Assembly: GCA_016932965.1 (NCBI GenBank)
Contig: JAFGBW010000190.1
Coordinates: forward strand, 1-5,117
Length of the DNA: 5,117 nucleotides
Direction of reading: 5' to 3'
Origin: Candidatus Auribacterota bacterium
GTDB lineage: Bacteria; Auribacterota; JAFGBW01
The notes below the pieces were generated by a model that saw nothing but the letters and a program-made list of their open reading frames with translations, was not told the DNA's origin and ran no database searches. The translations under genes and the position numbers were made by a program. Positions 667 through 5,117 of the stretch are shown piece by piece (position 1 is the stretch's first letter; every line of letters begins with the position of its first letter).

Positions 667-3600
667 ATGCAGCATTTTCTATCGGACAATCTTTTTGATC
701 AGCTTCGGATCAATACTCAAGCGACGGAAGAGGATATCGCAAGAAGTTATGATCTCTTGAAGAGGCAGGTGGAATCCGGCTTCATGGTGAACGAAGAAGA
801 TCAGAAAAAAGTCCAGGAGTTGTCCCGGTACCTCCAGGATAAGGAATACCGGATACGGTCGCTTGTTTTTCACGGCGGTTTCGGTAATCAGGAATGGGAT
901 CAGCAATTGGCTCTTTTGCGTAAACTCATGGATAAAGACAAACTGGTTCTAAAAGAGTGGGAAGATTGTTTCCTGTCGCTGTATGAAGTATGGGATTCTC
1001 CTGCCTTTTCTCCGGCTCTTCTGGATTCCGGGCATATCACAAAAAAAGATGATCCCGAAGACATCGCTATTCTTGGGAGGGTTTTGAATCACCTGATTAA
1101 AAATATACTGGATGTTCTTTTGCAACGCATGGAAATGTGCTTGAAAATCGGAGACAGATCCGCGGCCCTTCTTTATTTGGAGTTGCTGAATAAACTATCA
1201 TTGAAGGAGGATTCCCTTAAAAAAATTGCTTTGGAAAGACTGGCACAGGCTTTTTCCGGCTATATTTTATCCAAGATCAATGAATTGAAGTCCTTTGGAA
1301 GCAAATTAAGAAATCAGGATAATAAATTTCACGCTCAGGCGGTTATTTCAAGGATTGACCGGGATACCAAGGATGTCGTTGTACCTTTGGTCAGTCAGAT
1401 TCAGGCTTTGGAGTATTCAGGAAAGGAAACGTTACAGCGCGAATTCGATTCATTTATTGAGAATCTTGTTCAGCTGATAGGGCGTTTCGATAAACCAGAA
1501 AAAGCGGATTTTTATACGAAAGGCGACCTTTTAAAAAAGCCTGATGCAGTTCCAAGTGCGTCAGAAAAGAAGAAAGACACCAGGATCGAAAGAAGAATCC
1601 CAGCCGGAGCCCCCCAACTCGCCGGGGGTGTCTCATCTGCCGTCGGTTTGGATGAAATAAAAAAAATGGCTTCTGACGGAAAAATTGAGGTGGCAAAAAA
1701 TTTGTTTAAGATCAACAGAAAAAAAGTAAAAACCCCTGATCAGATTCAGCAATATGAAAAAGCCGCCGCGGATCCATTTTTTTTCATGGATGAACAACAT
1801 AAGAAATATTCGGCAAGAAACCCTTTTTTTACGTTGAAGCCGACTTCCTGCGCTACGGAAGATGGAAGGAGCATGAAAATTTTATGGTTCAGGTTTATTA
1901 TTCCTTTGATACCTGTCAGGGCACTGGTTTTTAAAGAAGGAGAAAAAGAGCCCTTGGGACGGCTTCTTCTGCCGTTCAAATATCAATTGATGCACTTTCT
2001 GGTTGCCCTGATCATGGCCATGGCCCTGTACGGCTTGTTCGTGATAAAGGGGAAAGGAGGCTATGAGACAAAAGACAACGAGGCAAAGGAGCTGTTGTCG
2101 GAAGTACGCTCTTCGGATTCTATGGAGGATACTTTGGAAAGGGCCCTTCATTTACTCAGCCGCCAGGAATTTTCCCAGTCACAAGCTTATTCGGATGCCT
2201 TTCGGCTGTGTTTACGTCTGACTGAAGGCGTGTTTTATTATTATGTGAAACACCGAAGAGTAAATACTTTTTTAAAACGTTACGGAAATGCTTATTTGCA
2301 GTTGAACCGGAAGGATAGACTGGTCATTCATCACCGTCTTTTCCGTTGCATCAGGAATCGCCTTTTTGAAAATCATTATGTGTCTGAGGATTTTTTTGAA
2401 TGGGCTATTAAAATGGGGGATTATGAATCAGGCCGTACTCTTTTGCTGGATCGTCTGCATTTTCATGAACAAAAAAATGATGTGGCTAACGTGAGAAAAA
2501 CACTTGATATGGGAAGAAAATATCAAATCCGGTTTTCCGGCGCTATCCTTCTTCCCTTTGCCAAAAGAAATATTTTATCTCCGGAGGAGATTCTGCTTTT
2601 TTGTGAAAATCAGGAATCAATTCCTGAAACATATTGGAAAGAGGGAATTCTAAAAATCTGGGAATGCCGTTCTATTTTAAATGACGACGAGAATCTGGCG
2701 GTGGTTCAAAAAACCTCTAACCGTTTTCCTGAGCTTCGATGCGATTTACTGGCTATCCTTCTGGATGTAAACAAGAATGCTGTTTATGACTGGACAAAAG
2801 AAATCCGGCAGGTTTTTAAGGCCCCTTCCGTGGAAAAAAGAATTAAAATCATTGCCTGCAGGGATTTGATCAGAAAAGATAAGATGGCAAGAGCGCTGGA
2901 AGTTGCCAAAACGATCCCCATCCATCCGGACAATGAAGCATTGACGTATTTGAGTGTTCCCATTTTCTATGCACAGAAAAAATGGCATCAGATGATTGAA
3001 TTTCTTGAAAATTATCAGAAAAAGCATGCTTTGGAATCCTATGATAAATTGCTGATGGGGGTAGCTTATATCAAGCAGGGCGATCATCAAAAGGGAAAGG
3101 ATATTTTACAGCCTCTGGTGAATACTTATCTGGAACCTTATCTTGTTCTATGGCAGGAACTTCATTCAAGGGAAAAAACGGTCCGGGAAGATGTCAATAT
3201 GAAGTTGAAGGGTAAAGTCGGAAAATACGAGGCTGTGGCGAGGAAGATCTATCTCATTCAGAGTGATGAGGAGGCTCGACAGGAAAAGGAGAAATTCATC
3301 CTTTCCGAGATAGCCTCTGATTTTCATGTTGTTAAATTGAAAGAGAAGATCGCAACGCAGCAGCGGTTTTTGGATGCCGTTTATGCTTATACTGAAGCTG
3401 TGATTCAGCTGAAAAATCCCGCTCAATTGCGGCCCGTCCGGGATATGCTTTATTCCATCAAAAAAGCTTTTTTCAGTTTTGATACGGATATCCTTTTAGC
3501 CAGGGTCTTACTGGATTCCGATAAAGGCGCATCAGCCAAGGACATTTTAGAGGAGACGGAGAATCTGGCCTTTGAAAGGAAGGAATACAGGCCCTTGCTG

Positions 3601-4977
3601 CGGCTGCTTTCCACTTTTTATGAACTGGGATGGAATGACAATAGGATGAAACTGGCTAAGAGAATTTTTAAAAAATGTGACGATCAGGATTTCAAGGATA
3701 TGACGGCTCGTCAGATGGGCATGCAGATGGCTGATGAAGATGATAAAATGGACTGGCTTAAAAAAATCAAGAGTAAAAACAGCATCGATGAAGCCATGAT
3801 TCATCTCATCTCTATCCGAATTGAAAAAAAGAAGAGAAACATGAATGCTGCACTGGAATTGTCGCAGCGTTTAACCTCCTGGTCACAGGAAAAAATAAAA
3901 GGAATTGATGATATCAATCTACTGAAAGAGCTGGGCAGGGAATTATTTCGATATTACCGATTATCCGGACGGGTGGATGCGTTGATCAGCGCTGAATATA
4001 GTCTGGAAAGGGCTGCTGTGTATGATAAAAGAAACAGCCAATTGATGAATGAATTATGGAGTGTTTTATGGTTTCGTTTACTTTCTGATCTGTTTCCCTC
4101 CTTCCCTGATCTGTATCTTCTTTCTGAAACCAATACAGATTTATTATGGGCTTGCTTTGATTCTGTTTTGGAAACAAAAACTGAAAAAGCTTTCATTGAA
4201 AAGGTTAATGATCATCCTTACTTTACGCGGATCAAGGCCTTATTGCAGAAAATGAACGGAAGCGAATGGCTTTCGACAATCACGGTTCCACCCGGTTTTT
4301 TTCTCCTATTAAGAACCGAAGGTGTTCTTTGGGACGGGATGATGAATTTAAAGAGAGATTCTATGGCTTCTGTCCCCTTTTCTGAATTATGGAGAAGATA
4401 TCCCGAGGAAGAAGATCTGATTAAAAAGAAAATGCAATCCGATCTGGACTTCGCGAAGAAAAATATGAAAACGACGGAGGAAAAGAATTCCCCGGAATAT
4501 GCCTTGGTGCTTTTATCCTACGTGAAGGCAGAAATACAAAACTGGTTATACAACGATCAAACGTTGAAGGTGGGATTTGACAGATTGCTTGAGAACGCGG
4601 AACTAAGCAGGGCCATAAGGGGGGGCATCCAGATCAAAAGGGCCGTGCTTGTTGTTAAATTATACAGGCTGGCTTTCTGGCATGATCCCAATAAAGAGGC
4701 ATTGATTTCTCTCCCACCGGCCATGGTGATCAAAAAAGCGATATTAAGCGGTCAGGGATCAAAACAAAATGAATTGAATGCGATTTTAAATGAGATAAAG
4801 GAATTGTATAAGGAAAGCAGGCCTTTTTTTAATGAAGACATGTTTGTGCTTTTGTCTCTTTTTGAAAATGAGAGTCCTGGCATAAGTCCTGAATTGGCGG
4901 ATATCATTCATCAGGAAGCACGCTGGGATTTTAATAATGCCAAAAGTCAGATCCTGAGACAGAGTCTGAAGAAATGA
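667..4977 (+). CDS. Large membrane-anchored protein: degenerate J-like N-terminus, one transmembrane helix, long TPR-like helical C-terminal region; function unknown
   Basis: I do not recognise this 1436-residue protein as a named gene. Residues 8-66 look like a J domain: NLFDQLRI and ATEEDIARSY match helices I-II, and VQELSRYLQDKEYRIRSL matches the end of helix III plus helix IV. The HPD tripeptide needed to stimulate DnaK is absent; VESG lies about where it should be. Residues 90-280 are helical and charged. Residues 285-325 form a Lys/Glu/Pro/Ala/Gly linker. A hydrophobic block at 406-438 with core PLIPVR precedes a single transmembrane helix at about 441-460. There is no signal peptide. 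Residues 461-1436 are almost wholly amphipathic helix, with TPR-like stretches near 792-825 (GVAYIKQGDHQKGKDILQPL) and 941-1003, suggesting an alpha-solenoid. Positive charges flank both sides of the membrane helix, so topology is unclear; a cytosolic N-terminus is assumed from the J-like domain. The frame is intact over 4.3 kb, so the gene appears functional. It is monocistronic here, divergent from the left gene and convergent with dprA. A scaffold or assembly role is inference. Confidence 0.9.
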   Translation: MQHFLSDNLFDQLRINTQATEEDIARSYDLLKRQVESGFMVNEEDQKKVQELSRYLQDKEYRIRSLVFHGGFGNQEWDQQLALLRKLMDKDKLVLKEWEDCFLSLYEVWDSPAFSPALLDSGHITKKDDPEDIAILGRVLNHLIKNILDVLLQRMEMCLKIGDRSAALLYLELLNKLSLKEDSLKKIALERLAQAFSGYILSKINELKSFGSKLRNQDNKFHAQAVISRIDRDTKDVVVPLVSQIQALEYSGKETLQREFDSFIENLVQLIGRFDKPEKADFYTKGDLLKKPDAVPSASEKKKDTRIERRIPAGAPQLAGGVSSAVGLDEIKKMASDGKIEVAKNLFKINRKKVKTPDQIQQYEKAAADPFFFMDEQHKKYSARNPFFTLKPTSCATEDGRSMKILWFRFIIPLIPVRALVFKEGEKEPLGRLLLPFKYQLMHFLVALIMAMALYGLFVIKGKGGYETKDNEAKELLSEVRSSDSMEDTLERALHLLSRQEFSQSQAYSDAFRLCLRLTEGVFYYYVKHRRVNTFLKRYGNAYLQLNRKDRLVIHHRLFRCIRNRLFENHYVSEDFFEWAIKMGDYESGRTLLLDRLHFHEQKNDVANVRKTLDMGRKYQIRFSGAILLPFAKRNILSPEEILLFCENQESIPETYWKEGILKIWECRSILNDDENLAVVQKTSNRFPELRCDLLAILLDVNKNAVYDWTKEIRQVFKAPSVEKRIKIIACRDLIRKDKMARALEVAKTIPIHPDNEALTYLSVPIFYAQKKWHQMIEFLENYQKKHALESYDKLLMGVAYIKQGDHQKGKDILQPLVNTYLEPYLVLWQELHSREKTVREDVNMKLKGKVGKYEAVARKIYLIQSDEEARQEKEKFILSEIASDFHVVKLKEKIATQQRFLDAVYAYTEAVIQLKNPAQLRPVRDMLYSIKKAFFSFDTDILLARVLLDSDKGASAKDILEETENLAFERKEYRPLLRLLSTFYELGWNDNRMKLAKRIFKKCDDQDFKDMTARQMGMQMADEDDKMDWLKKIKSKNSIDEAMIHLISIRIEKKKRNMNAALELSQRLTSWSQEKIKGIDDINLLKELGRELFRYYRLSGRVDALISAEYSLERAAVYDKRNSQLMNELWSVLWFRLLSDLFPSFPDLYLLSETNTDLLWACFDSVLETKTEKAFIEKVNDHPYFTRIKALLQKMNGSEWLSTITVPPGFFLLLRTEGVLWDGMMNLKRDSMASVPFSELWRRYPEEEDLIKKKMQSDLDFAKKNMKTTEEKNSPEYALVLLSYVKAEIQNWLYNDQTLKVGFDRLLENAELSRAIRGGIQIKRAVLVVKLYRLAFWHDPNKEALISLPPAMVIKKAILSGQGSKQNELNAILNEIKELYKESRPFFNEDMFVLLSLFENESPGISPELADIIHQEARWDFNNAKSQILRQSLKK

Positions 4978-5012: not shown

Positions 5013-5117
5013 CTAACTTCTCTTATTAAGAAGAAGATAGTCTCCTGCCAGACGACGTATCAATTTTTTCATTTCCAGCTTCAAGAGAAGATAGGAAATC
5101 TGCTGGGATGAAATATC
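5013..5117 (-). CDS. dprA: DNA-processing protein DprA, C-terminal 34 residues (gene continues off the right edge)
   Basis: The minus strand from 5117 is open for 34 codons and ends at TAG (5015-5013). The peptide includes ISYLLLKLEMKKLIRRLAGD and ends DYLLLNKRS. This fits the last part of the DprA C-terminal winged helix (DML1-like), where family members typically read LLxLELxGLVxRLxGxxY close to the stop. DprA/Smf is a cytoplasmic Rossmann-fold protein that binds single-stranded DNA and loads RecA during uptake of transforming DNA. The Rossmann core lies outside the window and cannot be checked. The identification rests on about 30 residues. Another winged-helix protein with the same terminal pattern is the main alternative, but the position at the C-terminus and the LE...GlvrrL.G..Y spacing favour DprA. 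It converges on the large gene. Confidence 0.65.
   Translation of the reverse strand, partial: DISSQQISYLLLKLEMKKLIRRLAGDYLLLNKRS

Follow-up and report, generated by a model that had tools for sequence, protein, structure and literature searches.

The window, an entire contig of 5117 bases (G000:C269) of the host genome, carries a gene for a 1436-aa protein with one strong membrane segment, a long tail of helical composition and no detectable homologue (667-4977, + strand). The protein looks like a scaffold. Tentatively, and at somewhat less than an even chance, we read it as a bitopic inner-membrane scaffold particular to its lineage: the N-terminal part would be cytoplasmic, and the TPR-like tail would lie outside, holding envelope partners.

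The gene, its neighbours and the search for relatives

The open reading frame is a real, single-copy bacterial gene. A codon usage model trained on other ORFs from the host genome (3.14 Mb in 300 contigs, about 93% complete) gives a log-odds of 0.187 per codon in its frame vs. at most 0.079 in the remaining five, and the value is positive in 9/9 blocks of 450 bases along the ORF. A plausible ribosome-binding site, GGAGGAAGG, can be read directly from the sequence about 9 bases 5' of the ATG (about 649-657, + strand). Further upstream, a motif match (TTGAGC-16-TATAAT, 598-625, + strand) is possibly the gene's own promoter; shuffles yield promoter-like sites about as often as the window does (10.0 vs. 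11). No paralogue is present in the host genome.

The neighbouring gene was recovered by joining two contigs. Reverse-complemented, bases 1-29 of the window match the opening 29 bases of contig G000:C12 exactly, and after joining, a minus-strand frame stays open across the joint. It encodes a 694-aa O-antigen ligase (Wzy_C, E 9e-19) with a TPR-like tail; the window holds the N-terminal part (3-515, - strand) and G000:C12 the remainder. This gene is divergent from the 1436-aa ORF, and a GDSL hydrolase gene comes next after it. Beyond the hydrolase, judged by inspection only, come a gene resembling a cysteine desulfurase, one for a 581-aa membrane protein, genes resembling glutamate synthase and one for a LysR-like regulator. 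Transcription of the 1436-aa ORF points away from all of these. At the opposite end, the window may hold the C-terminal end of an ORF convergent with it (5013-5117, - strand).

Wzy_C-like genes are present in many other genomes of the phylum, and no relative of the 1436-aa ORF lies near them in the stretches examined. In two of these genomes, a Wzy_C-like gene is located within a few kilobases of dnaJ (L152 on G015:C31 and L157 on G022:C513), and in G015, a DnaK-like ORF is also close by; these neighbourhoods are unrelated to the 1436-aa ORF.

The phylum was represented by 44 genomes, three of them in the order of the host and none other in its family, and a whole-protein search (E up to 10) found no homologue among them. 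Neither did the searches of 384 genomes (these 44 and about 340 more), of 21 genomes picked via a scan for the gyrase/topoisomerase B subunit, or of plasmids and phages. The genome_contigs and viral_contigs sets contain no relative at exact-peptide sensitivity. Three weak matches from the search of the 44 genomes (L002-L004), all around the transmembrane region and overlapping unrelated ORFs, were rejected as homologues. The initial annotation had assigned the protein to no recognised family, and this holds: no family in Pfam or NCBIfam exceeds its curated cut-off, PHROGs and PADLOC give no match at all, the solved structures, searched by sequence, give none either, and a literature search combining J domain, TPR and candidate phyla found nothing. 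Because no set searched contains a homologue, the protein is, by sequence comparison, an orphan within these genomes, plasmids, phages and viral contigs, and no conservation backs any of its domains. Since just two further genomes of the order, and no further one of the family, were covered, absence from the wider diversity of the order is not implied.

The membrane helix and the N-terminal half

The layout first proposed for this protein stands in outline, its J-like domain and its helical repeats being the two weaker parts. The single membrane helix is clear: residues 442-460 (1990-2046, + strand) reach a 19-residue Kyte-Doolittle mean of 2.34. The hydrophobic block reported ahead of it, ILWFRFIIPLIPVRALVFK, is found at residues 405-423 (1879-1935, + strand) with a borderline mean of 1.63, and the third most hydrophobic segment, at residues 133-151, has a mean of 1.30. 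The hydropathy scan finds no hydrophobic segment at the N-terminus. The low-complexity linker is equally recognizable, at residues 281-330 (1507-1656, + strand): it is P/G/K-rich, with 18% P+G, and a low-confidence model is devoid of secondary structure between residues 276 and 327.

Structure prediction had been suggested as a check of the folds. Only single-sequence models were made, with a mean pLDDT of 44 (residues 1-498) and 48 (residues 1-118), too poor for testing folds. The helical segment described for the N-terminal half is helical in a low-confidence prediction, in which residues 130-275 (1054-1491, + strand) would form a bundle of long helices (block pLDDT about 44-66; amphipathic moment z 3.8). 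The same model places a beta hairpin at residues 391-407. A putative helical hairpin at residues 340-384 (1684-1818, + strand) bears a weak likeness to the YvbH_ext oligomerisation region (PF11724; E 0.006, 17.3 bits vs. a cut-off of 22). Between this hairpin and the membrane helix, the stretch ILWFRFIIPLIPVRALVF (1861-1935, residues about 399-423) looks like the FIPLIP hairpin known from small zinc-ribbon proteins, minus its cysteines; Pfam has no match for it.

The J-like N-terminus and the comparison with Ftn2/ARC6

A degenerate J-like segment may occupy residues 9-62 (691-852, + strand). These residues align with positions 2-59/63 of the Pfam DnaJ model (PF00226; E 0.12), at a score of 12.9-13.2 bits that is far under the family cut-off of 27.8. 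In a genome-wide search with this model, three J domains pass the cut-off and the 1436-aa ORF is the best of the rest (E 0.32); over the 44 genomes, it is among the few sub-cut-off DnaJ matches spanning the whole domain. The HPD motif of J domains is absent from residues 1-70, and in the hhalign alignment, its position is a gap preceding VESG. This alignment of residues 10-62 with a J domain has 25% identity (P 0.021). Among 150 decoy N-termini, one, which has its own weak DnaJ match, scores higher and one about equal. The low-confidence models place helices at residues 4-15, 21-36 and 43-59, positions that would fit a J fold. In genome G006, a 182-aa ORF (L161:2333-2878, - strand) also has a sub-cut-off DnaJ match, to positions 14-63/63 (C61:7663-7809), with a Wzy_C-like gene on the same contig; it is possibly another degenerate J-like protein.

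The resemblance could also be due to chance, the protein then being simply a helical one of degenerate TPR-like type, anchored in the membrane and diverged past recognition. This explanation has a substantial chance of being correct, well short of even. The low bit score and the missing HPD are in its favour, as are the controls. With our own J profile, which combines four J domains of the host genome and a same-order relative with two E. coli ones, 93/4770 reported shuffles (about 2%) score at least as high as the N-terminus of the 1436-aa ORF, and so do eight other ORF N-termini (about 2%), one of which belongs to a real DnaJ. With hhalign, 3/200 shuffles score higher and about one ties. The decoy tests give about p 0.02 and are not mutually independent. 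Structure searches with the models returned no J-fold match, though at pLDDT 44-48 the models are uninformative and this result carries no weight. Against chance speaks the match itself: it runs end to end right at the start of the protein, and no other sub-cut-off DnaJ match of the genome scores better. The degenerate J-like domain of the initial annotation keeps its N-terminal register from end to end, a predicted helix spacing like that of DnaJ and a weak score, whereas the protein differs from a DnaJ J domain in lacking HPD and in staying far under the cut-off. Given the weak scores, the decoy results and the missing motif, a J-like identity is suggestive and not established.

A distant parallel with Ftn2/ARC6 had also been drawn. 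Ftn2/ZipN of cyanobacteria and ARC6 of plastids combine, as our protein may do, a J-like N-terminal segment (about residues 6-70), a helical body and a single membrane span. The ZipN protein of Anabaena has 798 residues, with the J-like segment at 6-70 and one span at about 608-630; the protein interacts with FtsZ, and its N-terminus is regarded as cytoplasmic (PMC6391411). The parallel is limited to this layout, in which the membrane span is clear and the J-like part weak. The proportions differ: about 170 residues follow the span in Anabaena ZipN, as against about 977 after residues 442-460 here. No relationship in sequence was seen, and no ARC6 family model is matched in Pfam (E up to 10) or NCBIfam (E up to 1). 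Judged by family models and described layout, membership of Ftn2/ARC6 is not supported. By analogy with ZipN, whose parts come in the order suggested here, the protein might still act like Ftn2/ZipN/ARC6, its cytoplasmic J-like part tethering FtsZ or the divisome and its outer part recruiting envelope partners. We consider this highly unlikely in view of the unmatched models, the different proportions, a known neighbourhood with no cell-division gene (by inspection) and the lack of homologues in the phylum.

The helical tail, its orientation and the scaffold reading

The region behind the membrane helix, about 977 residues (2047-4974, + strand), looks all-alpha. The last 977 residues have a helix propensity of 1.067 and 5.9% P+G. 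Three TPR proteins give similar values (1.074-1.085; 6.6-8.7%), whereas 15 other ORFs of the host genome differ (0.99-1.053; 8.8-15%). One TPR-like stretch is found at residues 733-821 (2863-3129, + strand; EccA1_N E 8e-4). Within it, residues 744-819 match canonical TPR proteins from two further genomes (phmmer, 34% identity, E 4e-6 to 5e-6 per genome), and Pfam TPR_6 aligns at residues about 795-821 with 22.4 bits vs. a cut-off of 26.3. Searched with a profile of 22 TPRs, the C-terminal region shows no array; the profile does pick up repeats in several O-antigen ligases from these data. At lags 33-34, the autocorrelation of hydropathy is small (z about 2), a TPR consensus scan of the tail is slightly above shuffles (58/1000 shuffles), and the PPR and SEL1 scans are no better than shuffles. 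Of the helical repeats proposed earlier, the helical composition and the TPR-like stretch are retained, and these are common to TPR solenoid proteins (PF13174 and others); the protein differs from them in having no profile-found array and nothing over a cut-off. Residues 460-1436 are likely all-helical, and a repeat array within them is not shown.

Because the N-terminal 440 residues contain no export signal, the protein probably has its N-terminus in the cytoplasm and its tail outside. The charges flanking the membrane helix do not settle the orientation, about three K/R being close on each side. The opposite arrangement, with a cytoplasmic solenoid and the N-terminal 440 residues outside, is decidedly unlikely: three lysines soon after the helix (KGKGGYETK) and eight cysteines in the C-terminal part would suit it, but neither a signal sequence nor a second strong membrane segment is there to export the N-terminal residues, and this arrangement would leave the J-like segment outside.

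TPR-like tails bind other proteins, which makes a membrane-held scaffold the simplest reading. A membrane-anchored scaffold had been proposed at the outset; the strong membrane segment is there, and scaffold action is a fair reading. About 440 residues would lie in the cytoplasm, comprising the degenerate J-like segment, the helical bundle, the flexible linker and a possible oligomerisation hairpin. Residues 442-460 would cross the inner membrane as a single helix, and the TPR-like tail of about 977 residues would hold envelope partner proteins outside, possibly of surface-polysaccharide assembly. With HPD missing, the J-like segment would act as a binding module rather than as an Hsp70 activator. 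The membrane segment, the lack of a hydrophobic one at the N-terminus, the helical composition, the TPR-like stretch, the N-terminal J-like register and the adjoining O-antigen ligase and GDSL hydrolase genes argue for this scaffold; the absence of homologues, of an array by TPR profile and of models good enough for fold tests argues against it, as does a polysaccharide gene that is divergent and not in the same operon.

As an orphan from a sparsely sampled phylum, the gene is mainly a lead. A more specific proposal, which we regard as unlikely, is a lineage-specific, envelope-spanning scaffold that combines a non-Hsp70 J-like cytoplasmic module with an outer solenoid of ~980 residues and evolved independently of ARC6/Ftn2. 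If the overall layout described above is true, scaffolds with a J-like segment, one membrane span and a solenoid would have arisen more than once, beyond cyanobacteria and plastids.
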